Shown here piece after piece: positions 1 through 64,000 of a DNA stretch of 64,000 bases (within the stretch, counting starts at the first letter, position 1; every line of letters begins with the position of its first letter). Below the pieces are notes generated by a model, which saw only the letters and a program-made list of their open reading frames with translations, searched no databases and was not told the DNA's origin. Source of the stretch: Ehretia macrophylla (taxonomy: Eukaryota > Streptophyta > Magnoliopsida > Boraginales > Ehretiaceae); assembly GCA_037974665.1 (NCBI GenBank), contig CM075771.1, forward strand, positions 43,694,425-43,758,424. The letters run 5' to 3'. Made by a program: the position numbers and the translations under genes.

Positions 1-2123
1 GGATACCTAGTCAAAAGCCCCACGCCCTCTGTTTGCGGGCCCTGCCTCTACGTGAAGTGAAGTTGTCTTGACCAAGGTGCCATGTTATTCGGTAATAGAA
101 ATGTGATAGAATAGGTTGTCGTCGTTTTTGCCGCTTACGACGTACGATTCGGGAGGGAAAAACAGCGCAAAAGAAGAAAAGTGTCCCGAAACTGATGAAA
201 ACGTTAGATTTTGGACTCCGAAAATAGGCGCAAGCAAGCAAGCTTGGTGCCCCAGTCGTAGAGCTCTCGGAGAGATTTCCAACGGTATACTGTGCGCCGG
301 GTAACTCTTTACGGATCAAAAGTTATGAGCACCAGAGTGACGAATACCTGGTCATAAGCCCCACGCCCTCTGTTTGCGGGCCCTGCCTGTACGTGAAGTG
401 AAGTTGTCTTGCCCACGGTGCCGTGTGATCCGGTAATAGAAATATGATGGTTTAGGTTGTCGTCTTTTTCGCAGCTCACGACGTATGATCCAGGATGAAA
501 AAACGGCACAAAGGAAGAAAAATGTCCCAAAACTTTTGAAAACGTTCGATTTTGGGCTCCGAAAATAGGCTTAGCCGAGCAAGCTTGGTACCCTCGTCGT
601 AGAGTTCTCAGAGAGCTTTCCAACGGTATGCTGTGCGCCGCGTAACCCCTTACGGATCAAAAGTTATGAGCACCGGAGTGACGGATACCTGGTCATAATC
701 CCCACGCCCTCTGTTTGCAGGCCCTACCTCTACATGAAGTGAAGTTGTTTTGCCCAAGGTGTCGTGTGATTCGGTAATAAAAATGTGATGGATTAGGTTG
801 TCATCCTTTTCGTGGCTCACGACGTACGATCCATGACGAAAAAACAGCGCAAAATAAGAAAAATGTCCAAAAACTGATGAAAACATTCAATTTTGGGCTG
901 CAAAAACTGGCGCAGCCAAGCAAGCTGGGTGCCCCTATCGTAAAGCACTCGGAGAGCTTTCCAACGATATGTTGAGCGCCATGTAACTCCTTACGGATCA
1001 AAAGTTCTGAGCACCGGAGTGACGGATACTTGGTCACAAGCCCAACGCCCTCTGTTTTCGGGCCCTGCCTCTATGTGAAGTGAAGTTGTCTTGCCCAAGG
1101 TGCCATGTGATTCGGTAATAGAAATGTGATGGATTAGATTGTCGTCCTTTTCGCGGCTCATGACTTACGATCAGGGATGAAAAAATAGCGCAAAGGAAGA
1201 AAAGTGTCCCAAAATAGATGAAAACGTTCAATTTTTGGCTCCGAAAATAGGCGCAGCTGTGCAAGCTTGGCGCCCCCGACGTAGAGCTCTTGGAAAGCTT
1301 TCCAACGGAATGCTTTGCGCCCCGTAACTCCTTACGAATCAAAAGTTATGAGCACTAGAGCGACGAATAGCTTGTCACAAGCCCTACACCCTCGGTTTGC
1401 GGGCCCAGCCTCTACGTGAAGTGAAGTTGTCTTACCCAAGGTGCTATGGGATTCGGTAATAAAAATGTGATGGATTAGGTTGGCGTCCTTTTCGCAGCTC
1501 ACGACGTATGATCCGAGACGAAAAAACAACGCAAAAGAAAAAAGTATCTTAAAACTTATGAAAACATTCAATTTTGGGCTCAGAAAACTAGTGCAGCCGA
1601 GCAAGCTTAGTGCCCTCGTCATAGAGCTCTCGGAGAGCTTTCCAACGGTATTCTGTGCGGCGCGTAACTCCTTACGAATCAAAAGTTATGACCACCGGAG
1701 TGACGGATACTTGGTCACAAGCCCCACGCCCTCTGTTTGCGGGCCCTGCCTCTACGTGAAGTGAAGTTGTCTTGCCCAAGGTGCCGTGTGATTCGATAAT
1801 AGAAATGTGATGGATTAGGTTGTAATCCTTTTCGCGGCTCACGACGTACGATCTGGGACGGAAAAACAGCGCAAAAGAAGAGAAGTATCCCAAAACTGAT
1901 GAAAACATTTGATTTTGGGCTCCGAAAATAGGCACAGTCGAGAAAGCTTGGGGCCGCTATCGTAGAGCTCTCGGAGAACTTTCCAACGGTATGCTGTGTG
2001 CCACATAACTCCTTACGGATCAAAAGTTATGAGCACTGGAGCGACGGAGACCTGCTCACAAGCCCTACGCCCTCTGTTTGCGTGCCCAGCCTCTACGTGA
2101 AGTGAAATTGTCTTGCCCAAGGT
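1..2123 (+). repeat. Satellite block 1 (about 6.2 monomers of 341 bp)
   Basis: Tandem head-to-tail copies of a unit near 341 bp. The phrase GGATACCTGGTCACAAGCC or a close variant recurs at about 3, 342, 683, 1024, 1364, 1705 and 2045. Copies differ by scattered substitutions, many at CpG. The last monomer, from about 2045, is of a recognisable subtype (G: GGAGACC start, GCGTGCCCAGCC, GAAATTGTC) and is cut at its AAGGT by the solo LTR that follows. The rest of that monomer resumes at 5234. Open frames on both strands are only readings of the repeat, and I see no gene here. Confidence 0.96.
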
Positions 2124-5100
2124 TGTCATGCCCCAACCGACCTATAGAGGCTAGACTAGGGTGTGAGCTAAACTTTCAAGTCATTTCGCGTACTTAACCG
2201 TTTATGAAGATTTCACACTTAATGTTTTGGCCTAAACTCCAAAATTTCCGGAAAATCGGCAGCATAACGGCTGTAATTGAGCTCTTTGGTTTGGCTTAAT
2301 TCTCTGAACGCCTCAAAATTTTCCAATCTCAATTTCATTTCCAACTAGGATTACCATTTAACATCAATTGAATTGTCTATTGGTTATTTCAACGTCTCGT
2401 TTGATTTATACCCTAGCATGATGCTATGTCTCGTTGGTTTGTTTATCCTAGTTATAAAAGTACGTGTTGATCTTAGCTTAATAGCGAATACTTGTTTAAG
2501 GTTTGGATGGTTCATCTTACTTAGCCCTTACCTAATACTTCATAATCCTATTATAGCTACTAGCGATAATAAAAGCAAAACGACCGTAGCAGTATCTAGT
2601 GACTGTCAAGAAATATTAGTACAAACCAAAATTAGACCCCAAATTACAACGGGGGTCTTTTACATTACAACATTAAGCAACATGAAAGAAACAGTCTTCA
2701 AGTAGCACAGTTTTCACAAATGGCCATAAATCAAGCAAAGCACATAGGACAGGCAATCACTCCAAGGAATCATCGTTAGGCACATCGTCCTGAGGTACCT
2801 GTTCTTGATCTTCTTCACCTGAGATGATAAAAGAGAGTGAGTCCTTATGAACTCAGCGAGGGGGAAACGAGAAATAGGTTTTGAAACTCTTTTTCTGGTT
2901 CAATCTTATGAAAATCCTTTTGCAAGCATGAATATAACACAATTAAGTACAGAATAATAATACAAAAGTAAAGGAACACAATTACCCGTCTTTCCTCCCC
3001 GAGGTTCTCTAGGAACCAAGAGAGAATACTTATACACATAGTAAAAAGGATACGGTGAGCTTTTGCTCTCAGTTCATTTCTAGAATCAGTTGTTGCGGCC
3101 GACTTCAAATCATCCCCTTAACACGCAAGGTGGGTGTACTCCGGATGTACCCCGAAATCCTATGACCCAACTCTCCGAGGAAGTCTAGCCCCCAAGCGAG
3201 AGAGGGAATGGGACCATGGTAGTCACGGGTGCACCGGCAAGCCCGATGCCGCCCGGTGTGCGTGATCGCTACCATGCCAGAATGAAAGGTTGCAACCTTA
3301 TATGCAATGCACATTTATGACATTTAATATATCACATTAGGAGGACAACAAAGTAGGTAGCCTCCGAACAGTCATAAGATTGCACATTGACAAGTAAACA
3401 AGCGAGCACGGATAGACAAGTAATTTCACTTGAAAAGCTCATGGAGTTATATGAACATTAAACGGACAGCCATGTAACGCACATAAATCAAGTCATATAA
3501 CTCAATTCAAAGTCCACGTAATCAAATAATAAGATTATATAACATGCAACAACATCTACATGGGCTCGGATGCAAGAAAAGCCTATTTGTCAACATGCAA
3601 TGATCAAAATCACATTTAGGACTATAAGGGCATCTACGGGCAGCCTACTAAGCATATAATTCCACACAATATCCAAATGATCAACACTTAGCAAGACTAC
3701 CTAGTAATTAGGGTTTCCATTTCGTGCTTACCTGTGTGATTAAACCCTAAGTCAACTCAAAATCAATCTCAAGCCATGCATCAATTAATTCAAACATCCC
3801 CAATTACTCAAAACAGTCCACATAACATCCCAATGTCACAATCCCAAGCAATTAATACCACACGAGAAGTTACAACAATTTTTCTAAGCATATAACCAAG
3901 TGAACCCTCACTGCAATAGGCTGTTTTCCCACAATCATTAAGATAAGCAAAAAATTTCCAATTCCAGTGAATAAGATGTAAAATTAAAGCTTAAGAAGTG
4001 AACTAAAATCAGAAACAAACCTTGCATCATTTGGAGTTCAAGATCATTAGTTATAGCCAAAACAGTGAGATAGCACAAAACTGTCCAGATTTGCACACAT
4101 CATTTTCAACATCATTTGCCTAGCCAAACGCACCTCGCAACAACAAGACAGAGAGCCGTCACCGAACCCGATTTCATCTATCATCATCTTCAAGCCAAAA
4201 TCTTGCCATGCATGGTTGTAAAAGCTTATGAACACACATATAACTCAAGTACAGAAGCAAAGACATACATTTAAGAGCATGCATGTGGATTTTTGAAGGA
4301 TTTTCAAAAGGTTTTAGCCCTCACCTTAGCAAATCAACAAGAAGATGCACAAAAACTTGTTGAAGCACAATTTTCTTCTTCTTCTTTGCCTAGCCGAGAT
4401 TCCAACTTGGTTTTCTCTATTTTTCCTAGCTTAGTGACCAAGCTCTTAGTACATGCATGTGGTTAGAACAAGAAGAAAATAAATGGAAGCTTAGTAACTC
4501 ACCTAGGGCCGAAATGAAGACTCAAGAGGTTGCATGTGAGTTTTCTTGCAACCTAGCTAGCTTGGTTGAGTTCCTTTGCTTGTGGCTTGTCTTGATTAAC
4601 CATCTGATGATGAAGATGAGCTAAAAGGTGTATGAACTCAGCCAAAACCGAGATTGAGAGAGAAGAATGAGAGGGAGATAGAGAAATGTGAGGAGAGTGA
4701 GAAAAATGAGAGAAAATAGAAGCTTTTGCAATTGTTGATGCAAATGTTGGCCTTGGGCATGCAAAAATCAGATTTTGTGTCATCTTTTGAGCATCTTTTG
4801 AATTGTTTTAGCATGTGTGTAAGAGAATGTTGCGTATTTAGGGATTTTAGGTAAAATAAAATATAGGATAAATGCACGTACTTCAAGATAAATGCACGAA
4901 TTCCAATGCAAATGCACGCAACCCTAGATAAATGTACGTAAACTAATACAAGGCACGTAATTCAATGCAATGCACATAAATTGAGGTACGACTCTTAAAC
5001 CTAGATTAGGACACGTAATTCAAGGTCAGGGCACACAAAACGAGACAACACTCACAATTCGAAGTTGGGGCACGCAAGTCGAGGATTAAGATACATAATT

Positions 5101-5233
5101 CTAGGTTAAGGCACGAATGACGAGGCATGCACGAAAACCAAGACAGGGCACGTAATCCAAGGTCAGTCATATCATTCTTGGTCTATGGCACGCAAATCAA
5201 GGTAACATACATTATTCAGGGTCGGGCCTCACA
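2124..5233 (-). mobile_element. Solo LTR A, Tekay/Del-like Ty3/gypsy family (fossil)
   Basis: A single LTR of the family whose full copy lies at 45555-57508, here in reverse orientation. Read on the minus strand it begins TGTGAGGCCCGACCC and ends GGTTGGGGCATGACA. It is flanked by the 5-bp duplication AAGGT (2119-2123 and 5234-5238). No internal coding region remains, so it is the product of LTR-LTR recombination. It is about 3.1 kb, shorter than its 3.6-kb relatives. The purine strand of the family's CT tract lies at 4651-4720, the conserved AAGGTTGCAACCTT palindrome at 3286-3299 and the GACCCC/GGGGTC stem-loop at 2634-2658. It shares with solo LTR D an extended GTGC-rich 5' part (about 4870-5230), so the two belong to one subfamily. 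The small open frames inside it are not convincing genes. Confidence 0.93.
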
Positions 5234-5808
5234 AAGGTGCCATGTGATTCGGTAATAGAAATGTGATGGATTAGGTTGTCGTCCTTTTCGCGGCTCGCGA
5301 CCTACGATCCGGGATGAAAAAACAGCGCAAAAGAAGAAAAGTGTCCCAAAACTTTTGAAAATGTTCAATTTTGGGCTCCGAAAACAAGCGCAACAGAGCA
5401 CGCTAGGTGCCCCCATCGTAGAACTCTCAAAGTGTTTTCCAACGGTATGTTGTGCGCCACGTAACTCGTTACGGATCAAAAGTTATGGGCACCGGAGCGA
5501 CGGATACCTAGTCATAAGCCCCACACCCTCTGTTTACGGGCCCTACCTCTACGTGAAGTGAAATTGTCTAGCCCAAGGTGCCATGTGATTCGGTAATAAA
5601 AATGTGATGGTTTAGGTTGTCGTCCTTTTCGCGGCTCACGACGTACGATCCAGGACAAAAAAATAGCACAAATGAAGAAAAGTGACCCAAAACTGATGAA
5701 AACGTTCGATTTTGGGCTCCGAAAACAGGCGCAGTCGAGCAAGCTTGGTGCCCCCTGTCGTAGAGCTCTCAGAGAGCTTCCCAACGGTATGTTGTGCACC
5801 ACGTAACT
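5234..5808 (+). repeat. Satellite block 2 (about 1.7 monomers)
   Basis: Satellite between solo LTRs A and B. It completes the G-type monomer broken at 2123: the ACTCGTTAC ending near 5464 and the CTCAAAGTG variant near 5425 are the same marks that complete G-type monomers elsewhere. It then begins one more monomer, which is cut at TAACT (5804-5808) by solo LTR B. Confidence 0.95.
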
Positions 5809-7034
5809 TATGAGGCCCGACCTTGATTTACGTGAGATATCTCGTTTCGTGTGCCCTAACACAGATTTGCGTGCTTTGACCTAGGTTTAAGAATTGTGTT
5901 TCGTTTTGTGTGCCTTGCATTGAATTGCGTGCATTTATTTAGGGTTGCGTGCATTTATTTAGAAAACATGCATCCGTCTCGTAGTTCGTGCCCTACCTCG
6001 TAGTGCGTGCCATAGACCTAAGAAAGTGTGCCCTTACGCTAATCAAGAAAGCATCTTACACGAAGTACTAGGTCATTAATTAATCATACAAATCCCACTA
6101 ACTAATATTAAATTACTAATTCAACCCACTAGAAGACGAAATTGCACCAAAAGCTAGACATTCTTATTCTTTATTCCTTATTCTTTTGCACTTTCCAAAC
6201 ACACAATTAAATAATGCTCAAAAGATGACAAAAAATCATATTTTTACATGCCTTGGCCGACCACCTTGTGTACATTTGTGCTTGCTTGCATAATTCAAAT
6301 TGAACCCAAACATTCTATGACAATTCTATGACACAAATGCATAAAAAAAATAACCTAAAACCCTACCCAATGCACCCATATTCTCCACCTATTCTCTTGC
6401 CATGCTAGGTAATTCAAAAACCATGCTTCTTGAAGACACAAATCTGAATTTGCAAAGCTCAAGGCCGACATATGCTTCAAACTTTGCAAAGCTTTCATTT
6501 TCTTTCATTTCTCTTATTTCCCCTCATTCCTCTCTCTCTCCCTCTCATTCTTCTCTCTCTCTCTCGGCCTTGGTTGAGTTTCTACACTCCATAGCTTATC
6601 TTCATCACTTCATGGTTCATCAAAGCATGCAAGAAGCTAGGGAGCTCGACTAAGCAAGCTAGGTTGCAAGAAACACACATGCAAGCTCTTGAACCTCCAT
6701 TTAGGCTTAGGTGAGTTTGCTAGCTTCCATTTCTTTTCTTCTTGTTCTAACCACATGCACCTACTAATAACTTGGTTACTAAGCTAGGAAATTTGATAAA
6801 AATAGAGTGGTGTCTCGGCTAAGCAAGGAAAAGATCAACTTTGTGCTTCATCAAGAGTCTTGTGCATCTTCTTGTTGTTTTGCTAAGGTAAGGGCTAAAA
6901 CTTCTTGAAAATCTTTCAAAAAACCACATGGATGCCCTTAAATGTCTATATTTACTTCTGTATTTGAGATATATGTGTGTTCATGAGCTTTTATAAACAT
7001 GCATGACAAGATTCTTGGCTAGAATGTGATGATA

Positions 7035-7455
7035 GATGAAATCGGGTTTGTGACAGCTTTCTATCTTGTTGGTACGAGGTTGTTTTGGCTAGGTAAATGA
7101 TGTTGAAAATGTGTGAAAAATTGGTAGGTAACTATTTGTGCCAGTTCTGAACATTTTTTGAAGAAATAGGCCGAAGCTAATTTTGACTCTAAGGTCCTCA
7201 AATTAGCAAATCATTAAAATGTGTCCAAATCTGGAAAGTCAGGAAAAATGAAGCAGGTTTTGGCAGATTCACTGACCTTGTAGAACGAACCAGTTTTGAC
7301 TTATTAAATGATATCAAAAATGCATGAAATTTTGTGTGCAGCTATATTTTTCGGTTCTGGACATTTTTGTCAGAAATGGACTAAGGCTAAATCTGAACCT
7401 AAGGCCCTTGAAAATGACAAGTATTGAAATGTGTACAAATCTGGACAGTTTTGTG
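7035..7455 (+). repeat. Diverged tandem duplication (about 210 bp x 2) inside the LTR
   Basis: Two adjacent units align at an offset of about 210 bp. TTTTGGCTAGGTAAATGATG at 7083 matches TTTTGACTTATTAAATGATA at 7294. Both continue with CAGTTCTGGA/CAGTTCTGAA-type and AAATGTGTNCAAATCTGGA phrases. The same pair is visible in the other long LTRs (for example 46800-47190 and 55180-55570), so it predates the spread of the family. Confidence 0.8.
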
Positions 7456-8230
7456 CAGTCTCATTGTTTTGGCTATAACTATTGAACCCGAACTCCAAAT
7501 GATGCAAGGTTTGTTTCTGAATTTAGTTCACTTTATAAGATTTAATTGGACATCTTATTCATTGGAATTTGAGATTGTTTGCTTGTCTTAATGATTGTGA
7601 GAAAATAGTCCATTGCAGTGAGGGTTTCACTTAGTGATATGCTAAGAAAAATTATTGTAGCTTCTCTTGTTGTATTAAATGCTTGGGATTATGGCATTGG
7701 GATGTTGTGTGGACTGTTTTGAATACTTGAGGGTGTTTGAATTAATCGACGCATGGCTTGAGTTTGATTTTGAGATAACTTGGGGCTTAATCGCACGGGT
7801 AAGCACGAATTGAAACCCTAATGACTAGGTAAATTCACTAAGTGTTGATCCTATGAATATTGTGTTTAATTATATGTTTAGTAGGCTGCCCGTAGTTTCC
7901 CTTGTAGCCCTAAATGTGATTTTGATGATTACATGTTGACAAGTAGGCCTTTCTTGCACCCGGACCCATGTAGATGTCGTTGCATGTTGAATAATCTTAT
8001 TATTTGATTATGTGAACTTCGAAATGAGTTATATGACTTGATTTACATGCGTTACATGGCCTCCCGTTTAATGTTCATATAACTCCATGTGCCTTTCAAG
8101 TGAAATTACTTGTTATATCGTGCCTCGCTTGTTTACTTGTCAATGTGCAATCTTATGACTGCTCGGAGGCAACCTACTTTATTGTCCTCCTAATGTGATA
8201 TATTACATGTCATAAATGTGCATTGCATAC

Positions 8231-8244
8231 AAGGTTGCAACCTT
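8231..8244. promoter_or_regulatory. Perfect 14-bp palindrome in the LTR
   Basis: AAGGTTGCAACCTT is self-complementary. It recurs in the same LTR position at 3286-3299, 19271-19284 and 62481-62494, and as a 12-bp core in both LTRs of the full element. About 45 bp further on an inverted pair CACCGG...CCGGTG follows. Conservation suggests a bound site or RNA structure. Its function is not known to me. Confidence 0.5.
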
Positions 8245-9938
8245 TCATTCTGGCGTGGTAGCGTTCACGCACACCGGGCAGCATCGGGCTTACCGGTGCA
8301 ACTGTGACTGCCATTGTCCAATTCCCTCTCTCGCTTGGGGGCTAGACTTCCTCGGAAAGTTGGGTCGTAGGATTTCGGGGTACATCCGGAGTACACCCAT
8401 TTGGCGTGATAAGGGGATGATTTGAAGTCGGCCGCAACAACTGATACTGACATGAACTGAGAGCAAAAGCTCACCGTATCCTTTTCACTATGTTTATAAG
8501 TACTCTCGCTTGGTTCCTAGAGGACCTCGAGGAGGAAAGACGGGTAATTGTGTTCCTTTACTTCTATGTTACGTTATGCACTTACTTGTGATATATTCAT
8601 GCTTGCAAAAAGAATTTTTCATAAGTTGAACCAGAAAATGAGTTTCAAAACTTATTTCTCGTTCCCCCTCATTGAGTTCATAAGGACTCACCCTCTTTTA
8701 TCATCTCAGGTGAAGAAGACCAAGAACAGGTACCCGAGGATGACGTGCCTAATGATGATTCCTTGGAATGATTGCTTGTCCTACGTGCCGTGCTTGATTA
8801 TGGCCATTTGTGAACACTATGTTGCTTGAAGACTATTTCATTTCTTATGATGTTTGTTGTTGTATTGTAAAAGACCCTCGTTGTAATTTGGGGTCTAATT
8901 TTAGCTTGTACTGATAATAACTAGATAGACACTACTATGGACGTTTTTGCTATCATTATTGGCTAGTATCTATCATAGGATTATGAAATATCAGGTAAGG
9001 ACTAAGTAAAATGAACCTATCCAATCTTAAGTAGGTACACACTATTAAGTTAAGATCAACAGGTACTTGTGTAACGAGGACAAACAAAAAAACGAGACAT
9101 AGTATCATGCTAGGTTATTAATCAAACGAGACTTCGAGATAACCAGTAGGCATTTCAATTGATGGTAAATAGTAATCTTAGTTGGAAATGAAATTGAGAT
9201 TGGAAAATTTGAGGCGTTTAGAGAATTAGGTCAAACCAAAGAGCCCAATTACAACCGTTATGCTGCTGGTTTTCCAGAAATTATGGAGTTTAGGCTAAAA
9301 CGTAAGTGTTAAACATTCATGAACGATTAAGTATGAGATATGACTTGAATGTTTAGATCACACCCTAGTCTAACCTTTATAGGCCGGGTTGGGGCGTGAC
9401 ATAACTCCTTACGGATCAAAAGTTATGGGCACCGGAGCGAAGGATACCTGGTCACAAGCCCCACGCCCTCTGTTTGCGGGCCTTGCCTCTACGTGAAGTG
9501 AAGTTGTCTTGCCCAAGGTACCATGTGATTCGGTAATAGAAATGTGATGGATTAGGTTGTCGTCCTTTTCGCGGCTCACGACGTACGATCAGTGATGAAA
9601 AAACAACACAAAAGAAGAAAAGTGTCCCAAAACTAATGAAAACGTTCGATTTTGGGCTCCGAGAACAGGCGTAGCCCAGCAAACTTGGTGCCCCAGTCGT
9701 AGAGTTCTCGAAGAGCTTTCCAACAGTATGCTATGCGCCACGTAACTCTTTACGGATCAAAAGTTATGAGCACCGGAGCGACGGATACCTGGTCATAAGC
9801 CCCACACCCTCTGTTTGCGGGCCCTGCTTCTATGTGAAGTGAAGTTGTCTTGCCCAAGGTGCCGTGTGATTCGGTAATAGAAATGTGATGGATTAGGTTA
9901 TTGTCCTTTTCGTGGCTCACGACGTACGATCCGGGATG

Positions 9939-10005: not shown

Positions 10006-10041
10006 TAGGCGCAGTAAGCAAGTTTGGTGCCCCCGTCATAG

Positions 10042-50420: not shown

Positions 50421-50549
50421 ATCAGGGTAAACCAGCTTGTAGAGGCAAGACTCCAGTTCCTAGAGTTCAGGCTCGAGCTTATGCTATTGAGTGCGAGGAG
50501 CTTCCAGATGAGACCGCTGTTGTTGAAGGTACATTCTTCATACTGAATC

Positions 50550-50880
50550 AACCTGTTAGGGTATTAATTGACCCGGGTACTACTCATTCATTTATTACTC
50601 CCTTATGTGTGGAACGTGTGAAACTGAAAGTTGTATGTTTGCCATATGAAAAAGAAGTTGGTACTCCAATGGGTTCTAAACTTGTTACTAGCTCAGCTTG
50701 TAAAGCATGTAAAATCCAAATTAAGGATAGGGAATTCTCAGCCAATATTATTGTATTACCTTTTCAAGACTATGAGGTCATGTTAGGGATGGACTGGTTG
50801 GCAAAACATCATGTCCAACTAGATTGCCGGATGAAGATTATAACGTTCCGGGTACCTAGTCAACCAATACTGGAGGTAAT
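50550..50880 (+). pseudogene. Aspartic protease domain, decayed element
   Basis: Encodes [12 protein letters not shown] around 50561-50596 and later MLGMDWL near 50780-50800. These are the flap-and-core signatures of the pepsin-like retrotransposon protease that would cut Gag-Pol. It lies directly between gag and reverse transcriptase, as expected for Ty3/gypsy elements. Confidence 0.85.
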
Positions 50881-51049
50881 GGGTCGAAGAGATTTCACCG
50901 GGAGTTTCATCATTTCATCTACAAAAGCAGTGAAGTCCTTGAGAAAAGGGTGTAGCGGATACTTAGCTTACCTCATCAACAAGCCGTCGGATAAAGCTAA
51001 GTTGAAGGAAATGCCTGTGATCAAAGACTATGCGGATGTGTTTCCAAAA

Positions 51050-51790
51050 GAATTGCCCGGTTTACCCCCAAATTGGGAGATCGAGTTCATTATAGAGTTA
51101 CTGCCTGACACCCAGCCGATATCTAAAGCCCCCTATCGGATGGCACCGGCCAAGCTACAAGAATTGAAGGACCAATTGCAAGGATTGTTGAAGAAGGGGT
51201 TTGTTCAACCGAGTTCTTCACCGTGGGGTGCACCATTTCTATTTGTAAAGAAGAAAGACGGAACGTTGAGGCTATGCATCGATTACCGATGATTGAACCA
51301 AGTGACTGTCAAGAATAAATACCCACTTCCACTGATCGATGAGCTATTTGATCAACTTCAAGGAGCCAAAGTGTATTCGAAACTCGACTTGAGGCAAGGG
51401 TATTATCAATTGCGGATCAAAAAGGAAGATGTGCCTAAAACGGCTTTCAGGACAAGATATGGGCATTATGAATATGTGGTGATGCCATTTGGACTAACTA
51501 ATGCCTCTGCAGCTTTTATGGATTTGATGCACAGGGTGTTTCAACCCTACTTGGACCAATTTGTGGTGATCTTCATTGATGATATTTTGGTATACTCGAA
51601 ATCTGAGGCTGAGCATGAACAACATCTGCGGTTGGTACTGCAGAAACTTCGAGAGCATCAATTGTATGCAAAGTTTAGCAAGTGTGAATTTTGGTTGCAA
51701 CAGATTGCATTTTTGGGGCATATCATATCCCAAGAGGGAATAGCGGTGGATCCAGGAAAGATAGAAGCAGTGATGTCTGGGAAGAAGTCG
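51050..51790 (+). pseudogene. Reverse transcriptase domain, decayed element
   Basis: Contains the conserved string ELPGLPP ahead of the domain, then [43 protein letters not shown] and the catalytic FIDDILVYS (near 51572-51600), ending around FLGHIIS. This is the plant Ty3/gypsy form of the polymerase that copies element RNA into DNA. The domain as a whole is well recognised, but the coding region it belongs to is broken. Confidence 0.92.
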
Positions 51791-51989
51791 GAGAATGTTA
51801 CGGAGATTCGGAGTTTTCTTGGTCTAGTCGGCTATTATCGCAGATTCGTGAAAGATTTCTCTAAGATTGCAGGACCACTTACAAAGCTCACTCAAAAGAA
51901 AACAAAGTTCGTGTGGGATGATAAGTGTGAGAACAGCTTCCAAGAGTTGAAAAGGAGATTGACTACCGCACCTGTTCTTGCATTGCCTG

Positions 51990-52360
51990 AAGGGAGTCAA
52001 GGTTTTGTAATCTATAGCGATGCTTCGAAGGAAGGATTGGGTTGTGTGTTGATGCAAAATGGTAGGGTGATTGCGTATGCCTCTAGGAAATCGAAGCCAT
52101 ATGAATTGAACTACCCGACGCATGATTTGGAATTAGCGGCTATTGTGTTTACACTCAAGAAATGGAGGCATTATCTGTGGGGTAACAAGTTTGAGGTATT
52201 TACTGATCACAAGAGCTTGAAATACTTGTTCTCTCAAAAAGAGTTGAATATGAGGCAAAGGCGGTGGATGGAACTTTTGGATGATTATAACTGCACAATC
52301 AATTATGTGCCCGGTAAAGCAAATGTAGTTGTAGATGCCTTGAGTAGGAAAGCGAGCATG
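51990..52360 (+). pseudogene. RNase H domain, decayed element
   Basis: Carries [14 protein letters not shown], the acidic ELAAIVF and [10 protein letters not shown] motifs, and closes with a DALSRK phrase typical of plant gypsy RNase H. It would degrade the RNA strand during reverse transcription. It follows the reverse transcriptase through a short connection segment. Confidence 0.9.
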
Positions 52361-52619
52361 GCAAAACTGGAAGTCAAGGTGCAGGAGTTGTTAGAGGAAG
52401 CATTTTTGTGGAAACCACAATTGACTCGAAAATGGTTACTTTTTGCCACTACACAAGTTCAATTGACCTTGTTGTCCGAGTTGCGAGAGGCTCAACAGAA
52501 GGACCAACAATTTCAGAAGAGTAAAGAAAGCAACGCAAATTTCAAGTTTCATGATGATGGTATTTGGAGGTTTAGGAATCGGATTTGTGTTCCCAATGAA
52601 CCAAAGCTGAAAAAGAAGA

Positions 52620-53620
52620 TTCTTAAAGAAGCCCATAATTCAAGATACACTATTCACCCCGGTGGAACAAAGATGTACCGGGATTTGAAGTAACACTATT
52701 GGTGGAATAATATGAAGAGAGAGATCGCGGAGTTCGTGGCACGATGTTTAACTTGCCAGAGAGTCAAAGCAGAACATCAATGACCCGCAGGTTTACTTAC
52801 ACCGTTAGAGATTCCTCAATGGAAATGGGAACATATAACTATGGACTTTGTTATGGACCTGCCCAGGTCACAAAAGGGTCGCGACGCCGTTTGGGTCATA
52901 GTGGATAGATTGACTAAGTCAGCGCACTTCTTACTGATGAATAAGGAGGATAGTCCTAAGAAATTGGGAGATATGTATGTGGCAGAGATTGTAAGATTGC
53001 ACGGGATGCCTGTGAGTATTGTATCGGATAGGCATCCTCGTTTTACTTCCCGATTTTGGAAGAGATTGCAAGAAGCTTTGGGACGAAGTTGAGTTTCAGC
53101 ACAGCTTATCACCCTCAGACTGATGGACAATCGGAAAGAACTATTCAGATTCTGGAGGATATGCTAAGGGCGTGTGTTTTAGACTTCGGGAAAGGTTGGG
53201 AGAAATATCTGTGTCTAGCGGAGTTCGCTTATAATAATAGTTATCAGGCCACTATCAGGATGACCCCTTTTGAGGCATTGTATGGACGTAAGTGTCGATC
53301 CCCAATTTACTGGGATGAAGTAGGAGAAACGAAGACTTTTGACCCGACCCTTCTACCTGAACTTATGAAGACTGTTGATAATATCCACCTCATCCGAAAA
53401 TGGACGCTTACCGCCCAAAGCAAACAGAAGAGCTATGCAGACCGACGGAGACGGAGTCTAGAGTTTGAGGTCGGCGACAAGGTGTTCTTGAAGATATCAC
53501 CTCGGAGGGGACTAATTAAACACGACAAGGGTGGAAAGTCGAGGCCGAGATTTGTAGGACCATTTGAGATAATTGAGAAGATTGGCAAATTGGTGTATCA
53601 CTTGGCACTACCCCAAAACC
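52620..53620 (+). pseudogene. Integrase domain (HHCC, D-D-E core, GPY-like), decayed element
   Basis: An HHCC zinc-binding start ([11 protein letters not shown] near 52634, CLTCQRVK near 52748) is followed by the catalytic core with [29 protein letters not shown] and [20 protein letters not shown] segment near 53548 is the GPY/F-type module that precedes chromodomains. Integrase inserts the DNA copy and, in chromoviruses, is steered by the tail domain. The coding region is broken. Confidence 0.9.
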
Positions 53621-53734
53621 TCTCCAATATTCACGACGTCTTTCATGTTTCAATGCTGCGGAAGTATCACCCTGATCCATCGCATATCTTGGAGCCAGAA
53701 CCGTTGCAGCTTCGGGAGAACTTGTCTTATGAGG

Positions 53735-53890
53735 AGAAGCCCATTCGGATCCTAGACCAGCAAGATTGCGAGTTGCGCAACAAAACTATACCGAAGATAA
53801 AAGTGCAGTGGGATCATCATGGAGTTGAAGAAGCAACATGAGAATGGCGAGACCAGATAGAGCAGCAATATCCAGTTTTATTTCAAAGGT
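53735..53890 (+). pseudogene. Integrase C-terminal chromodomain (Tekay-like)
   Basis: The end of the integrase region encodes [26 protein letters not shown] and EEATW, closing with a YPVLF-like end. This matches the remembered pattern of the Del/Tekay chromodomain tail. Such tails are known to direct chromoviral integration toward heterochromatin, which fits an element found six times inside one satellite. Assignment to Tekay and not another chromovirus clade is by pattern only. Confidence 0.75.
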
Positions 53891-53919
53891 AATATTGAAT
53901 TTCAGGATGAAATTCTTTT

Positions 53920-53932
53920 AAGGAGGGGAGTA
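53920..53932 (+). promoter_or_regulatory. Polypurine tract
   Basis: AAGGAGGGGAGTA sits immediately before the TGTGAGG start of the 3' LTR, where plus-strand DNA synthesis is primed. Confidence 0.9.
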
Positions 53933-56900
53933 TGTGAGGCCCGACCTCGATTTGCGTGCGATACCTCATTTTGTGTGCCCAAACCTAGATTTGCGTGCCT
54001 TAACCTAGGTTTAAGAATTGTATTCGTTTTGTGTGCTATGCATTGAATTACGTGCATTCATTTAGGGTTGCGTGCATTTACTTGGAAAATGTGCATTCGT
54101 CTCGTAGTTCGTGCCCTACCTTGTAGTGCATGCCCTAGACCTAGGAAAGCGTGCCCTCATGCAAATCAAGAAAGCATCTTACATGAAGCACTAGGTCATT
54201 AATTAATCCTACGAATTCCACTAACTATTATTAAATTACTAATTCAACCCACTAGAAGACAAAATCTCACAAAAAGCTAGACATTCCTTATTCTTTATTC
54301 CTTATTCTTTTTGCACTTTCAACACACAATTAAATAATGCTCAAAAGATGACAAAAAAATCAGATTTTTAGATGCCTTGGCCGACCACCATGTGGGCTTT
54401 TGTACTTGCTTGCTTAATTCAATTTAATTCCTAGACAAACTATGACAATTCTATGACACAAATGCATAAAAACTAGCTCAAACACCTCCTCAAAACTCCC
54501 AATATCGACAAGATGCTCCATGCCCATGCTAGGAATTTCAAAATGCTTCTTGAAGACATAAAAATCAGAATTGCTAAGCTTAAGGCCGAACACTTGCATC
54601 AACAATTGCAAAAGCTATCATTTTTTTTTTCATTTTCTCTCATTCTCCTTACATTTCTCTCTCTCCCTCTCATTCTTCTCTCTCTCACTCGGCCTTGGCT
54701 GAGTTTCATCTTACCATTGCTCATCTTCATCATTCCATGGTGCATCAAGACAAGCAACAAGCAAAGAGACTCGACCAAGCTAGCTAAGTTGCAAGAATCA
54801 CACATACAAGCTCTTTGAGTCACCATTTCGGCCTTGGTGAGTTTGATAGCTTCCATTTCTTTTCTTCTTGTTCTAACCACATGCATCTACTAAGAACTTG
54901 GCCACTAAGCTAGGAAAAATAGAGAAAATTGAGTTGGAGTCTCGGCTAAGCAAGAAAAAAGAAATTTGTGCTTCATCAAAGTTTTGTGCATCTTCTTGTT
55001 GATTTGCTAAGGTGAGGGCTAAAACTTCTTGAAAATCTTTCAAAAATCCACATGCATGCTCTTAAATGTATGTCTTTGCTTCTATACTTGAGTTATATGT
55101 GTGTTCATAAGCTTTTACAACCATGCATGGCAAGATTTTGGCTTGAAGATGATGATAGATGAAATCGGGTTTGGTGACAGCTCTCTGTCTTGTTGTTGCG
55201 AGGTAAGTTTGGCTAGGAAAATGATGTTGAAAATGCATGAAAATTGGTAGGTAACTACTTTTTCCAGTTTTGAACATTTTTCGCAGACATAGGCCAAAGC
55301 TAATTTTGACTCTAAGGTCCTCAAAATGATAAATCATTAAAATGTGTCCAAATCTGGAAGTCTAGAAAAAATGAAGCAGGTTTTGACAGATGCACTGACC
55401 TTGTAGAACAAACCAGTTTTGGCTTAGTAAATGATGTCCAAAATGCATGAAAGTTGTTGTGCTGCTATATTTTTCAGTTCTGGAAATTTTTGTCAGAAAT
55501 AGACTAAGGCTAAATCTGACCCTAAGGACCTCAAAAATGACAAGTATTGAAATGTGTGCAAATCTGGACAGTTTTGTGCAATCCCACTGTTTTGGCTATA
55601 ACTATTGGAACCGAACTCCAAATGACGCAAGGTTTGTTTCTGATTTTAGTTAATTTCTTAAGATTTAATTTGACATCTTATTCACTAGAATTGGAGATTG
55701 TTTACTTGTCTTAATGATTGTGAGAAAACAGCCTATTGCAGTGAGGGTTTCACTTAGTTATATGCTTAGAAAATTTGTTGTAACTTCTCTTGTGGTATTA
55801 AATGCTTGGGATTGTGCATTGGGATGTTGTGTGGACTGTTTTGAGTACTTGGGGATGTTTGAACTAATTGATGCATGGCTTGAGATTGATTTTTGAGTTG
55901 ACTTGGGGCTTAATCGCACGGGTAAGCACGAAATGGAAACCCTAGTGACTAGGTAAACTTGCTAAGTGTTGATCCTTTGGATATTGTGTGTAATTATATG
56001 TTGAGTAGGCTGCCCGTAGTTACCCTTATAGCCCTAAATGTGATTTTGATCATTGCATGTTGACAAATAGGCCTTTCTTGCATCCAAACCCACGTAAATG
56101 TTGTTGTATGTTGAATAGTCTTATTATTTGATTAGGTGGACTTTGAATTGAGTTATATGACTTAATTTACGTGCGTACATGGCTGCCCGTTTAATGTTCA
56201 TATAACTCCATGTGACTTTCAAGTGAAATTACTTGTTTATTCGTGTCTCGCTTGTTTACTTGTCAATGTGCAATCTTATGACTGTCCAGAGGCAACCTAC
56301 TTTGTTGTCCTCATAATGTGATATATTAAATGTCATAAATATGCATTGAATATGAGGTTGCAACCTTTCATTCTGGCGTGGTAGCGTTCATGCACACCGG
56401 GCGGCATCGGGCTTGCCGGTGCAACCGTGACTACCATTGTCCAATTACCTCTCTCGCTTGGGGGCTAGACTTCCTCAGAGAGTTGGGTTGTAGGATTTCG
56501 GGGTACATCTAGAGTACACCCACTTGGCGTGATAAGGGGATGATTTGAAGTCGGCCGTAACAACTGAGAGCAAAAGCTCACCGTATCCTTTTACTATATG
56601 TATAAGTACTCTCGCTTGGTTCCTAGAGGACCTCGGGGAGGAAAGACTGGTAATTGTGTTCCTTTACTTTATATTATTGTTATGTACTTAATTGTGTACA
56701 TTCATGCTTACAAAAGGATTTTCATAAGTTGAACCGGAAAATGAGTTTCAAAACATATTTCTCGTTCCCCCTCGCTGAGTTCATAAGGACTCACCCTCTT
56801 TTATCATCTCAGGTGAAGAAGATCAAGAACAAGTACCTGAGGACAATGTGTCTAACGATGATTCCTTGGAGTGATTACCTGTCCTATGTGCTTTGCGTGA

Positions 56901-57508
56901 TTATGGCTATTTGTGAACTATTTTACTTGAAGACTATTTCTTTTTATGTTGGTCAAAGTTTGTAATGTAAAAGGCCCCCATTGTAATTTGGGGTCTAATT
57001 TTCGTTTGTACTGATATTTACTAGACAAACACTAGACACTACTATAGTCATTTTGCTATTATTGCTGCTAGTATCTATAATAGGATTATGAAGTATTAGG
57101 TAAGGGCTAAGTAAAATGAACCAACCAAATCTTAAGTAGGTACTCGTTGTTAAGCTAAGATCAACAGGTGCTTTTGTAACGAGGATAAACAAACAAACGA
57201 GATATAGTATCATGCTAGGTTATTAATCAAACGAGACATCGAGATAACCAGTAGGCATTTCAATTGATGGTAAATAGTAATCTTAGTTAGAAATGAGATT
57301 GAGAATTGGAAAATTTGAGGCGTTTAGAGAATTAGGTCAAACCAAAGAGCCTAGTTACAGGCGTTATGCTGCCGGTTTTCTGGGAAATTTTGGAGTTTAG
57401 GCTAAAACATTAAGTGTTAAATCTTCATAAACGGTTAAGTATGTGATATGACTTGAATATTTAGATCACAACCTAGTCTAACCTTATAGGCCGGTTTGGG
57501 GTGTGACA
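53933..57508 (+). repeat. 3' LTR of the full element
   Basis: 3576 bp, TGTGAGGCCCGACC...GTGTGACA. It is colinear with the 5' LTR over its whole length, with the CT tract at about 54619-54690, the TATA-like word at 56601-56608 and the stem-loop at 56972-56996. Divergence from the 5' LTR is uneven by eye: higher in the first 250 bp (about 8%) and lower, about 4%, in the GC-rich segment near 56270-56530. Confidence 0.95.
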
Positions 57509-60053
57509 AAGGTGCCGTGGGATTCAGTAATAGAAATGGGATGGATTAGGTTGTCGTCCTTTTCACGACTCACGACGCACGATTCGGGATGAAAAAATAT
57601 CGCAAAAGAAGAAAAGTGTCCAAAAACTGATCAAAACGTTCAATTTTGGGCTCCGAAAATAGGCGCAGCCAAGCAAGCTTGCTGCCCCCATCGTAGTGCT
57701 CTCAATGTGCTTTCCAACGGTATGCTGCGCACCGCGTAACTCCTTAGGGATCAAAAGTTATGGGCACCGGAGAGACGGATACCTAGTTACAAGCCCCACG
57801 CCCTTTGTTTGCTGGCCCAGCCTCTACGTGAAGTGAAGTTGTCTAGCCCAAGGTTCCATGTGATTCGGTAATAGGAATGTGATGGATTAGGTTGTCGTCC
57901 TTTTCGCGGCTCACGACATACGATCCGGGACGAAAAAATAGCGTAAAAGAAGGAAAGTGTCCAAAAACTTACGAAAATATTCAATTTTGGGCTCCGAAAA
58001 TAGGCGCAACCGAGCAAGCTAGGTGCCCCCTTCGAAGAGCTCTCGGGGAGCTTTCCAACGGTATGTTGTACGTCGTATAACTCCTTACGGATCAAAAGTT
58101 ATGAGCACCGGAGCGACGGATACTTAGTCACAAGCCCCACGCCCTCTGTTTGCGGGCCCAGCCTCTACGTGAAGTGAAGTTGTCTTGCCCATGATGCCAT
58201 GTGATTCGGTAATAGAAATGTGATGGATTAGGTTGTCGTCCCTTCGCAGCTCACGAAGTACGATCCGGGACGGAAAAACAGCGCAAAAGAAGAAAAGTAT
58301 CCCAAAACTGATGAAAACGTTCGATTTTGGGCTCCGAAAACAGGCACAACTGAGTAGCATTGGTGCCCCCGTTGTAGAGCTCTCGGAGAGCTTTCCAACA
58401 GTATGTTGTGGGCTGCGTAACACCCTACGGATCAAAAGTTATGAGCACCGAAGCGACGGATACCTGGTCACAAGCCCCACGCCCTCTGTTTGCGGGCTCT
58501 GCCTGTACGTGAAGTGAAGTTGTCATGGCCAAGATGCCGTGTAATTCGGTAATAGAAATGTGTTGGATTAGGTTGTCGTCCTTTTCGTGGCTCACGACGT
58601 ACGATCCGGGACCGAAAAACAGCGCAAAAGAAGAAAAGTGTCCCGAAACTAACGAAAATGTTTAATTTTGGGCTCCGAAAACTAGCGCAGGCAAGCAAGC
58701 TTGGTGCCTCCATCGTAGAGCTCTCAGAGAGCTTTCCAACGGTATGCTGCGCGCTGCGTAACTCCTTATGGATCAAAAGTTATGAGCACCAGAGCGACGG
58801 ATACCTTGTCACAAGCCCCACGCCCTCTGTTTGCGGGCCCAGCCGCTACGTGAAGTGAAGTTGTCTTGGCCAAGGTGCCGTGTGATTCAGTAATAGAAAT
58901 TTGTTAAATTAGGTTGTCGTCTTCTTTGCGGCTCACGACGTACTATCCGGGATGGAAAAACATCGAAAAAGAAGAAAAGTGTCCCAAAACTTATGAAAAT
59001 GTTCAATTTTGGGCTCCGAAAGTAGGCGCAGCTAAGCAGGCTAGGTACCCCCATCGTAGAGCTCTCAGAGAGCTTTCCAATGGTATGTTGTGCGCCGCGT
59101 AACTCCTTACGGATCAAAAGTTATGGGCACCGGAGCGACGGATACCTGGTTACAAGCCCCACGCCCTCTGTTTGTGGGCCCTGCCTTTACGTGAAGTAAA
59201 GTTGTCTAGCCCAAGGTGCCATGTGATTCGGTAATAGAAATGTGATGGATTAGGTTGTCATTCCTTTCGCGGCTCACGACGTACGATCCGGGACGAAAAA
59301 ATATCGCAAAAGAAGAAAAGTGTCCCGAAAATGGTGAAAATGTTCGATTTTGGGCTCCGAAAACAGGCACAACTAAGCAAGCTAGGTGCCCCCTTTGTGG
59401 AGCTCTTGGAGAGCTTTCCAACGGTATGTTGTACGTCGCGTAACTCTTTGCGAATCAAAAGTTATGAGCAACGAAGCAACGGATACTTGGTCACAAGCCC
59501 CACGCCCTGTGTTTGCGGGCCCAGCCTCAACGTGAAGTGAAGTTGTCTTGCCCAAGGTGCCATGTGATTCGGTAATAGAAATATGATGGATTAGGTTGTC
59601 GTCCCTTTCCTGGCTCACGACGTACAATTCGGGACGGAAAAACAGCGCAAAAGAAGAAAAGTGTCCTGAAAATGGTGAAAACGTTCGATTTTGGGCTACG
59701 AAAACAGGCGCAACCGAGCAAGCTAGGTGCCCCTTTCGTAGAGCTCTCGGAGAGCTTTCCAACGGTATGTTGTACGCCGCGTAACTCTTTACTGATCAAA
59801 AGTTATGAGCACCGGAGCGACAGATACCTGGTCATAAGCCCCACGCCCTTGGTTTGAGGCCCCAGCCTCTACTCGAAGTGAAATTGTCTTACCTAACGAG
59901 CCGTGGGATTCGGTACTAAAAATGTGATGGATTAGGTTGTCGTCCTTTTCGCGGCTCGTGACGTACAATCCGGCACGAAAAAACAGCGCAAAAGAAGAAA
60001 AGTGTCCCAAACTGATGAAAACGTTCGATTTTGGGCTCTGAAAATAGGCGCAG
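57509..60053 (+). repeat. Satellite block 6 (about 7.5 monomers)
   Basis: Continues the array after the full element. The run repeats the subtype order seen at 43.1-45.5 kb: GGGATGGATTAGG with CTCAATGTGC (compare about 43190-43370), then AGAAGGAAAGTG with GAAAATATTC, then GTGTTGG (M4, about 58560), M5 (about 58900), Z, Z and X (from 59822). It ends inside X at CGCAG (60049-60053), the target of solo LTR F. No gene is seen. Confidence 0.95.
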
Positions 60054-63000
60054 TGTGAGGCCCGACCTCGATTTGCATGTGATACCTCGTTTCGTGTGCC
60101 TAACCTAGATTTGCGTACCTTGACCTAGGTTTAAGAGTCATGTTTCGTTTTGTGTGCCTTGCATTGAATTACGTGCATACATTTAGGGTTGCGTGCATTT
60201 ACTTGAAAAACGTGCATTCATCTTGTAGTGCGTGCCCTACCTCGTAGTGCGTGTCCTAGACCTAAGAAAGCGTGCCCTCACGCTAATCAAGAAAGTATCT
60301 TACACGAAGCACTAGGTCATTATTTAATCCTACAAATCCCACTAACTAATATTAAATTACTAATTCAACCCACTAGAAGACGAAATTGCACCAAAAGCTA
60401 TACATTCTTATTCTTTATTCCTTATTCTTTTGCACTTTCCAAACACACAATTAAATAATGATCAAAAGATGACAAAAAATCAGATTTTTACATGCCTTGG
60501 CCGACCACCTTGTGTGCTTTGTGCTTGCTTTGCATAATTCAAATTATTCCCCAAACATTCTATGACAATGTAATGACACAAAGCAATAAAAAATTAGCTC
60601 AAAAGCCTCCTCAAAGCTCCCAATCTCGACATAAGCTCCTTGCCCATGCTAGGTGATTCAAAAATCATGCTTCTTGAAGACACAAATCTGAAATTTGTAT
60701 GCCCAAGGCCGACACATGCTTCAACATTTTCAAAAGCATTCATTTTTCCTTCATTTCTCTCAATTCCTCTCATTCTTCTCTCTCCCTTTCATTCTTCTCT
60801 CTCTCTCTCTCGGCCCTAGCTGAATATTGTAGACTCCATAGCTCATCTTCATCACTCCATGGTTCATCAAGGCAAGCAAGAAGCTAGGGAGCTCGACTAA
60901 GCAAGCTATGTTGAAAGAAACACACATGCAAGCTCTTTGAATCTCCATTTCGGCTTAGGTGAGTTTGCTAGCTTCAATTTCTTTTCTTCTTGTTCTAACC
61001 ATATGCACCTACTAAGAACTTGGTTACTAAGCTAGGAAATTTGAGAAAAATCGAGTTGTGTCTCGGCTAAGCAAGGAAAAATATCAACTTTGTGCTTCAT
61101 CAAGAGTTTTGTGTATCTTCTTGTTGTTTTGCTAAGGTGAGGGCTAAAACTTCTTGAAAATCTTTTAAAAAAAACCACATGCATGCCCTTAAATGTCTAT
61201 ATTTACTTCTGTACTTGAGATATATGTGTGTCCATGAGCTTTTATAAACATGCATGGCAATATTCTTGGCTAGAATGTGATGATAGATGAAATCGGGTAT
61301 GTGACAGCTTTCTATCTTGTTGGTGCGAGGTGATTTTGGCTAGGTACATGATATTGAAAATGTGTGAAAATTGGTAGATAACTAGTTTTGCCAGTTCTGA
61401 ACATTTTTCACAGAAATAGGCCAAAGCTAATTTTGACTCTAATGTCCTCAAAATGGAAAATCACTAAAATGTGTCAAAATCTGGAAAGTCTGGAAAAATG
61501 AAGCAGGTTTTGGCAGATTCACTGACCTAGTAGGACGAACCAGTTTTGACTTAGTAAATGACATCAAAAATGTGTTAGATTTGGTGTGCTGCTATATTTT
61601 TCAGTTCTAGGAATTTTTGTCAGAAATGGACTAAGGCTAAATCTGACCCTAAGGCCCTCAAAAACGACAAGTATTGAAATGTGTGCAAATTTGGACAGTT
61701 TTGTGCAGTCTCACTATTTTGGCTATAACTATTGAACCCGAACTCCAAATGATGCAAGGTTTGTTTCTGAATTTAGTTCACTTAGTAAGCTTTAATTTGA
61801 CATCTTATTCACTAGAATTGGAGATGTTTTTCTTGTCTTAATGATTGTGAGAAGACAGTCCATTGCAGTGAGGGTTTCACCTATTGATATGCTTAGAATA
61901 ATTAATGTAGCTTCCGTTGTTGTATTAAATGCTTGGGATTGTGGCATTTGGATGTTGTGTGGACTGTTTTGAATGCTTGAGGGTGTTGGAATTAATCAAT
62001 GCATGGCTTGAGCTTAATTACGAGATGACTTGGGATTTAATCGCACGGGTAAACACGAATTGAAACCCTAGTAACTAGGTAAACTCGCTAAGTGTTGATC
62101 TTATGGATATTTTGTTTGATCATGTGTTTAGTAGGCTGCCCGTAGTTGCCCTTATAGCCCTAAATATGATTTCGATGATTACATGTTGATAAGTAGGCAT
62201 TTCTTGCACTCGATCCCACGTAGATGTCGTTGCATGATGAATAATCTTATTATTTGATTACGTGAACTTTGAAATGAGTTATATGACTTGATTTACGTGC
62301 ATTACATGGCTGCCCGTTTAATGTTCATATAACTCCATGTGCCTTTCAAGTGAAATTACTTGTCTTATCGTGCCTTGCGTGTTTAACTGTCAATGTGCAA
62401 TTTTATGACTGCTCAGAGGCAACCTACTTTGTTTTCCTCCAAATGTGATATATTAAATGTCATAAATGTGCATTGCATACAAGGTTGCAACCTTTCATTT
62501 TGGCGTGGTAGCGTTCACGCACACCGGGCGGCATCGAGCTTGCCGGTGCAACCGTGACTACTATTGTCCAATTCCCTCTCTTGCTTGAGGGCTAGATTTC
62601 CTCAGGGAGTTGGGTCGTAGGATTTCGGGGTACATCCGGAGTACACCCATTTGGCATGATAAAGGGATGAATTGAAGTCGGCTGCAACAACTGATACTGG
62701 AATTGAACTGAGAGCAAAAGCTCACCGTATCCTTTTCACTATGTGCATAAGTACTCTCGATTAGTTCCTAGAGGACCTCGGGGAGGAAATACGGGTAATT
62801 GCGTTCTTTTACTCTTATATTACATTATGTACTTGCTTGTGCTACATGTCATGCTTGCAAAAAGGGTTTTCATAAGTTGAACCGGAAAATGAGTTTCAAA
62901 ACTTATTTCTCGTTCCCCCTCGCTGAGTTCATAAGGACTCACCCTCTTTTATCATCTTAGGTGAAGAAGACTAGGAATAGGTACCCAAAGACGACGTGCC

Positions 63001-63643
63001 TAATGATGATTCCTTGGAATGATTGCTTGTCCTATGTGCCTTGCTTGACCATTTCGTGAACAATATGTTGCTTGAAGACTATTTCTTATTTTGCTTGTTG
63101 TCGTATTGTAAACGACCCCCGTTGTAATTTGGGGTCTAATTTTGGCTTGTACTGATAATAACTAGATAGACACTACTATGGTCGTTTTTGCTATCGTTAT
63201 TGGCTAGTACCTAACATAGGATTATGAAGTATCAGGTAAGGATTAAGTAAAATGAACCTATCCAATCTTAAACAGGCACTAATTGTTAAGCTAAGATCAA
63301 CATGTACTTTTGTAACGAGGATTAACAAACAAATGAGACATAGTATCATGCTAGGTTATTAATCAACGAGACTTTGAGATAACTAGTACGCGTTTCAATT
63401 GATGTTAAATAGTAATCTTAGTTGGAAATGAAGTTGAGATTGGAAATTTTGAGGCGTTTAGAAAATTAGGTCAAACTAAAGAGCCTAATTACAGCCGTTA
63501 TGCTGCCAGTTTTCCAGAAAATTGCGGAGTTTAGTCTAAAACGTCAAGTGTTAAACTTTCATGAACGGTTAAGTACGTGATATGACTTGAATGTTTAGAT
63601 CACACCCTAGTATAACCTTTATAGGCCGGGTTGGGGCATGACA
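60054..63643 (+). mobile_element. Solo LTR F, same chromovirus family (fossil)
   Basis: 3590 bp, TGTGAGGCCCGACC...GGTTGGGGCATGACA, flanked by CGCAG (60049-60053) and CGCAA (63644-63648), a duplication with one difference. It has the CT tract (about 60740-60811), the palindrome (62481-62494) and the stem-loop (about 63114-63136). It shares the segment GAAGCTAGGGAGCTCGACTA and other private phrases with solo LTR B, its nearest relative here. No coding interior remains. Confidence 0.93.
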
Positions 63644-64000
63644 CGCAACCTAGTAGGCGTGCTGCTCCCGTCGTAGAGCTCTTGGAGAGTTTTCCAACGG
63701 TATGCTGTGCGCCGCATAACTCCTTACGAATTAAAAGTTATGGGCACCGGAGTGACAGATACTTAGTCACAAGCCCCACTCTCTCGGTTTGATGGCCCAG
63801 CCTCTACGTGAAGTGAAGTTGTGTTACCCAAGGAGTCGTGGTATTCGGTAATAAAAATATGTTGGATTAGCTTGTTGTCCTTTTCGTGGCTCACGACGTA
63901 CGATTCGGGATGGAAAAACAGCGCAAAAGAAGAAAAGTGTCCCAAAACTGATGAAAACGTTCGATTTTGGGCTCCAAAAATAGGCGCAACCGATCAGGCT
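63644..64000 (+). repeat. Satellite block 7 (window edge)
   Basis: Completes the X monomer broken at 60053 (CCTAGTAGGCGTGCTGCTCC, CTTGGAGAG, TTACGAATT). The Y monomer follows (AAAATATGTTGGATTAGC near 63855), in the same X-Y order as at 31.4, 32.5, 37.2 and 39.6 kb. The array runs on past the window. Confidence 0.95.

Follow-up and report, generated by a model that had tools for sequence, protein, structure and literature searches.

Does a retrotransposon that inserts into a tandem satellite choose its target to the exact base, and if so, by what means? The question is raised by a 64,000-bp stretch of Ehretia macrophylla DNA, hereafter the window (C8:43694425-43758424, contig CM075771.1, in an assembly of 1.58 Gb and 20 contigs). 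In the window, six insertions, A to F (Table 1), of one chromovirus-like family of long terminal repeat (LTR) retrotransposons interrupt a tandem array whose satellite unit is 341 bp. Reuse of the same sites in the window is confirmed and is replicated outside it. The preferred explanation, with a probability of roughly 85%, is that many independent integrations of one chromovirus-like Ty3/gypsy family took place, with an integrase that picks its target to the exact base.

Site reuse in the window

Insertion positions are given as the first base of the 5-bp target duplication, in a monomer numbering in which GGATACC = 1. The left and right junctions of each window insertion were aligned to the monomer separately, and both give the same monomer position in all six cases. 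Target duplications of 5 bp flank every insertion, four of them perfect and two (D and F) with one mismatch. The insertions occupy five exact positions in four clusters, with D (230) and F (229) one base apart. The initial annotation, made from the sequence alone, had described four sites, two of them used twice in opposite directions. This pattern stands, although B, C, D and F had been placed up to 2 bases too low; the reuse of position 74 is exact (A minus, E plus), whereas D and F are neighbours, so that strictly five positions are used. Its expectation of 0.13 pairs for six random insertions is arithmetically right (15 x 3/341). In the window alone, the probability of two coincident pairs is about 0.008 (Poisson), with a one-base tolerance that was chosen afterwards. 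The special role given to the spacing of 154 bp between the two reused sites is not borne out, as used positions occur at many spacings and this one has no visible special standing.

Differences at the LTR 5' end divide the insertions into two subtypes, A/D and B/C/E/F. Each reused site in the window was therefore hit by two subtypes, in opposite directions. Within the window, both minus insertions (A and D) belong to one subtype and the four plus insertions to the other.

Concentration on exact monomer positions

Junctions were sampled across the genome in two ways. Thirty satellite loci were first taken by satellite similarity alone, and these already showed positions 229, 230 and 302 occupied on other chromosomes. 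The assembly contains 14,946 exact matches to the 15-base LTR 3' end, with internal ends counted in. LTR searches used 100-base LTR ends from five of the six window elements as queries, without flanking DNA. The best 40 candidates were scored per search, with 39/40, 39/40, 39/40, 21/40 and 37/40 retrieved; one further LTR-end search supplied 30 loci and 5/10 other places. The window's own copy was excluded from five of the six LTR-end searches. The 180 flanks of 200 bases obtained were pooled with the window and 60 larger loci. In loci L001-L060, LTR matches not within 3 bases of the LTR end were left uncalled. After removal of three repeated junctions (241 to 238), the sample comprises 238 unique LTR-end junctions, namely 95 internal ends recognised through primer-site or polypurine-type motifs, 92 in the satellite (12 of them the window's) and 51 elsewhere. 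For independence, the two ends of one element were merged, as were flanks at least 96% alike or, at the strict level, at least 90% alike. This yields 81 (96% threshold) or 70 (strict) independent satellite insertions, a genome-wide sample that removes the weakness of the six-insertion statistic.

The 70-81 independent insertions occupy 31 monomer positions, whereas a uniform distribution would give about 63-72 (for n=70, mean 63.4 and range 54-70 in 5000 draws). At the strict level, position 230 carries nine insertions, 302 and 290 carry seven each, 229, 74 and 340 four each, while 109, 136, 59 and 42 have three. Of the 64 strict insertions outside the window, 19 lie at most 1 bp from a window site against 2.4 expected (P 2e-12), and the 96% threshold gives 26 of 75 against 2.9 expected (P 2e-18). 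The sites 229, 230, 290, 302, 340, 74, 109 and 136 recur on at least three contigs each, and 59 on one only. Plus insertions are found at 22 positions and minus insertions at 18. Nine positions (21, 42, 59, 74, 229, 230, 290, 302 and 340) are common to both orientations, with 1.16 expected (P 1.1e-7); without the window insertions eight remain (P 9.5e-7).

Choice at the level of the single base is most apparent from exact plus-orientation junctions counted in the whole genome. There are 136 at position 302 (100 of these places are listed), none at 303 and none at 316, even though only one other word of the monomer is better conserved, in the copies examined, than the one that begins at 316. 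In a sample of the 302-plus junctions, all eight have differing flanks, with no pair more than 91% alike over 200 bp, and seven of the eight remain in the satellite for 390 bases. The base-level site choice and the use of both directions at the same sites, both proposed in the initial annotation, thus hold when many insertions are counted, and the distribution over the monomer is clearly non-uniform. The phased nucleosomes or curved DNA put forward there as the cause are candidates, and a weak sequence motif accounts for part of the choice. There is no single obligatory target, given 31 satellite positions and 51 junctions outside the satellite.

The 210-bp locus L169 was also inspected by eye. 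Two LTR ends there enclose about 23 bp of satellite (monomer about 229-251), and the arrangement looks like that of two elements inserted at the adjacent hot spots 229 and 247 within a single monomer.

Target motif and proposed mechanism

The target preference was derived from non-satellite insertions, each read from one end. Nine of the 51 non-satellite rows were dropped: the near-duplicate flanks L163, L175, L090, L232 and L238, a missed internal end (L091), the satellite fragment between two LTR ends (L169) and the two L056 rows, of which one is a satellite row whose flank is short. Of the remaining 42 half-sites, 37 have C or T and one has A at base 8 outward from the LTR end, which is the third beyond the duplication; at base 7, the second beyond the duplication, only four have T. 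The pyrimidine at base 8 is found at 13/14 element 5' ends and 24/28 3' ends, and the preference is therefore symmetric. The 92 satellite junctions, whose rows are not independent, show a similar tendency: 69 have C or T at base 8, 16 have A and 7 have G, and base 7 is T in four. A symmetric matrix built from the 42 half-sites separates used from unused satellite positions with an area under the receiver operating characteristic curve (AUC) of 0.756, or 0.733 without nine flanks judged to be 5S-related. The true register is the best of all 341 rotations of this matrix on the monomer. The family thus shows a weak palindromic target preference of the retroviral type.

A two-fold symmetric integrase complex is established for this enzyme class. 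Such a complex would join the element ends 5 bp apart and would accept the target in either orientation. It would favour a weak palindrome in which the third base beyond the duplication is a pyrimidine and the second is rarely T, a preference expected to single out candidate bases on the satellite. The very large number of monomer copies presents each such base repeatedly. A further feature of the monomer, possibly DNA shape or the rotational setting of nucleosomes, would then turn a few candidates into strong hot spots, with 229/230, 302 and 290 foremost, followed by 74 and 340. The most likely mechanism is ordinary retroviral-type integration, made unusually sharp by the repeated target, together with this second factor.

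Several observations weigh against so direct an account. Simulations with the motif only (5000, n=70) give about 56 used positions and never fewer than 46, against the 31 observed. The strongest sites, 230 and 229, are ranked by the motif only 100th and 161st of 341, the unused position 301 outscores 302, and 316 has a positive score but zero counted junctions. The motif does not suffice for the concentration on 230, 302 and 290, which is why a second factor is invoked; be it DNA shape or nucleosome setting, it would carry much of the effect. Helical nucleosome setting, the natural candidate, could well be this factor. Furthermore, the sample is not random, as it holds the LTR copies nearest to the six queries and satellite loci similar to one dimer.

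Alternative explanations

The strongest competitor, possible though on balance unlikely, assigns the dominant role to the nucleosome. Phased nucleosomes would expose outward-facing grooves to attack, and the A-rich stretch 137-228 would be linker or stiff DNA. This would account for the concentration that the motif leaves unexplained, and an association of plant LTR retrotransposon insertion with predicted nucleosomes is described in the parts of PMC6911290 considered here. Spacings of 10-12 bp between used positions are in excess (15 against 6.3 expected, P 0.0002, for a range chosen post hoc), and this excess may reflect a rotational nucleosome effect. The stretch 137-228, which makes up 27% of the monomer, holds 2 of 70 insertions against 18.9 under uniformity. 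Against it stands that the other tests fall short of significance. A helical period scan of the used positions is not significant (best 10.75 bp, P 0.108), nor is the periodicity of WW dinucleotides around the sites (P 0.22). Used positions show no excess over chance of pairs separated by half a monomer (170.5 bp; P 0.21), and the depletion of 137-228 is not significant under a clustered null (P 0.06). A rather unlikely, more specific proposal is that the satellite fixes the rotational setting of its nucleosomes and the integrase reads it with single-base precision. Outward-facing grooves would then be marked by hot spots spaced at 11-12 bp (279, 290, 302; 8, 19, 31, 42, 53, 65), and linker or stiff DNA by the nearly empty 137-228. 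If this proposal is true, the junctions in an assembly are a fossil footprint of satellite nucleosome position, readable without a chromatin experiment.

It is improbable that the weak palindromic consensus fully fixes the sites by itself. A motif learnt outside the satellite does predict satellite sites, as the AUC of 0.756 indicates, but none of the 5000 simulations came below 46 positions, and 229/230 score poorly.

Copying is a quite improbable source of the pattern. According to this explanation, a few old insertions were multiplied together with their satellite surroundings through unequal crossing over, gene conversion or captured units. Several sampled junctions are indeed exact copies, and 11 of 12 sampled 302-minus places (150 were counted) lie in one dispersed unit (L249-L259; the exception is L260). 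The 302-minus count of 150, which might have been taken as proof of equal orientation use, is for this reason not used as evidence. Yet copying keeps the orientation of an element relative to the monomer and cannot turn it round, so the nine positions used both ways do not derive from it. The two LTR subtypes that share each reused site in the window run in opposite directions, and the main sites recur on at least three contigs. With close copies removed, flank pairs from the same site are mostly about 86-92% alike among the pairs listed. Copying does occur, but it is ruled out as the main cause of site reuse.

Chance is barely credible. With only six insertions and a free choice of statistic, two coincident pairs might be unremarkable, at a P of about 0.008 and with the post hoc tolerance of one base; this reading is refuted by the replication among the 64-75 insertions outside the window, with 19 (26) near window sites against 2.4 (2.9), and by the exact junctions in the ratio 136 : 0 : 0 at 302, 303 and 316. 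Equally far-fetched is selection or loss after insertion, with elements landing anywhere and surviving only at some bases, since fitness would hardly account, in a tandem satellite, for 136 junctions at 302 and 0 at the neighbouring 303; nothing observed here speaks for it.

The dispersed unit and 5S-bearing repeats

The places L249-L259, of 410 bp each, combine an LTR end with about 192 bp of satellite (running from 306 down to 113) and with other DNA. Over about 399 bases their similarity to L253 is 86-100%, and they were sampled on contigs C1, C2, C4, C8 and C9. Their tail resembles by eye non-satellite flanks such as L231 and L236, and its last bases look like the beginning of a 5S gene, although Rfam gives no match in L253. 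A relationship of the satellite to a 5S-bearing repeat is possible. Rfam matches to 5S rRNA are found in six of 11 loci scanned (L200, L247, L236, L127, L155 and L194), and all of these but L247 were non-satellite insertion flanks. The matches at these five flanks indicate that 5S-bearing repeat units, or DNA next to them, are also targets of the family.

Features of the window and identity of the element

A BLAST map of the window, based on a consensus from 15 intact monomers, places the satellite on the plus strand only. Within one monomer (42922-43036), a local tandem duplication of 61 bp creates a unit of 402 bp. An origin of the monomer as an old dimer was considered and rejected, with a self-identity of 0.258 at offsets 170 and 171 against an all-offset mean of 0.25.

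Table 1. Satellite array, insertions and target duplications in the window (window coordinates; TRF, Tandem Repeats Finder)
Feature	Coordinates	Strand	Details
341-bp satellite array	1..64000	+	autocorrelation peak 341, TRF, BLAST map; interrupted by six insertions
Insertion A, solo LTR	2124..5233	-	3110 bp
A target duplication	2119..2123 and 5234..5238		AAGGT/AAGGT; monomer 74-78
Insertion B, solo LTR	5809..9401	+	3593 bp
B target duplication	5804..5808 and 9402..9406		TAACT/TAACT; monomer 302-306
Insertion C, solo LTR	16846..20431	+	3586 bp
C target duplication	16841..16845 and 20432..20436		GTGCC/GTGCC; monomer 247-251
Insertion D, solo LTR	26516..30649	-	4134 bp
D target duplication	26511..26515 and 30650..30654		GCAGC/GCAGT, one mismatch; monomer 230-234
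Insertion E	45555..57508	+	sole copy with internal region
E LTRs	45555-49128 and 53933-57508		3574 bp and 3576 bp; 96% identical
E target duplication	45550..45554 and 57509..57513		AAGGT/AAGGT; monomer 74-78
E reading frame with integrase C-terminal part	53032..53841	+	SH3_Tf2-1 (Pfam)
Insertion F, solo LTR	60054..63643	+	3590 bp
F target duplication	60049..60053 and 63644..63648		CGCAG/CGCAA, one mismatch; monomer 229-233

The assignment to Ty3/gypsy follows from LTRs with TG..CA ends (B begins with TA), duplications of 5 bp and the domain order. The internal region of E contains domains for gag, protease, reverse transcriptase, RNase H and integrase, in this order (Pfam Retrotrans_gag, RVP_2, RVT_1, RT_RNaseH and rve), in interrupted reading frames; the rve match, at 30.4 bits, is slightly below the Pfam cut-off of 32.6. 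No Pfam match to a chromodomain is obtained in E at E-values up to 10, though SH3_Tf2-1 is found. The piece that follows SH3_Tf2-1, which is cut by a stop, has by eye what we take to be a resemblance to a type II chromodomain, with no profile confirmation. Judging from the domain order, SH3_Tf2-1 and this resemblance, the element is likely a chromovirus. The long LTRs (about 3.6 kb) and a primer site of the tRNA-Met type would fit the Tekay clade. In the parts of PMC6317226 considered here, the aromatic cage is described as missing from the chromoviruses of seed plants.

Significance and comparison with known systems

In a tandem satellite the same stretch of 341 bp is available in very many copies, and the genome keeps a deep natural record of integrations into this fixed target. 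How a chromovirus-like integrase of a plant chooses its target at base level can be measured from an assembly, and the contributions of motif and chromatin can be separated. The nucleosome setting of the satellite becomes predictable and can then be checked against chromatin maps. Shared insertion sites in satellites are no proof of common descent, as independent insertions hit the same base.

Tos17 of rice is a Ty1/copia element and not, like the family described here, a Ty3/gypsy element. Its target shows a comparable weak palindrome around a 5-bp target site duplication (TSD), with the consensus ANGTT-TSD-AACNT in the excerpt of PMC6911290 used here; the C at the third base beyond its duplication fits the pyrimidine of the present family, while the consensus otherwise differs. 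In the same excerpt, plant LTR retrotransposons in general, nested and non-nested, display a weak palindrome and a preference for predicted nucleosomes. This is the same rule, a bias of sequence and predicted chromatin at the duplication. That survey averages over families, and 'satellite' occurs 0 times in its text.

Other elements share the satellite setting. Tal1 of Arabidopsis integrates into centromeric satellite under the direction of CENH3, and its targeting is described at the level of chromatin in the portion of the meeting report PMC12859917 considered. The CRM elements in maize CentC are chromoviruses inside a satellite; in the available portion of PMC2776974 their targeting is treated at the level of CENH3 regions, and 'insertion site' occurs 0 times. 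The corresponding portion of PMC11302176 contains nothing on site choice within a satellite. The literature listings examined contain no evident report of base-level hot spots in a satellite monomer, which is no claim that none exists.

A parallel in position is Beon1, a Galadriel chromovirus in the 18S rRNA genes of beet. According to the sections of PMC3605345 consulted, it occupies one conserved position, and some species carry it in either orientation. It resembles the probable chromovirus described here in its fixed place within a tandem repeat, its 5-bp duplication and the occurrence of both directions. The suggestion made for Beon1 is that one integration in a shared ancestor gave rise to it (PMC3605345), in contrast to the several hot spots on many chromosomes described here. 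The principle, weakly palindromic targeting of the retroviral type, is known; the present case is an unusually sharp instance of it.

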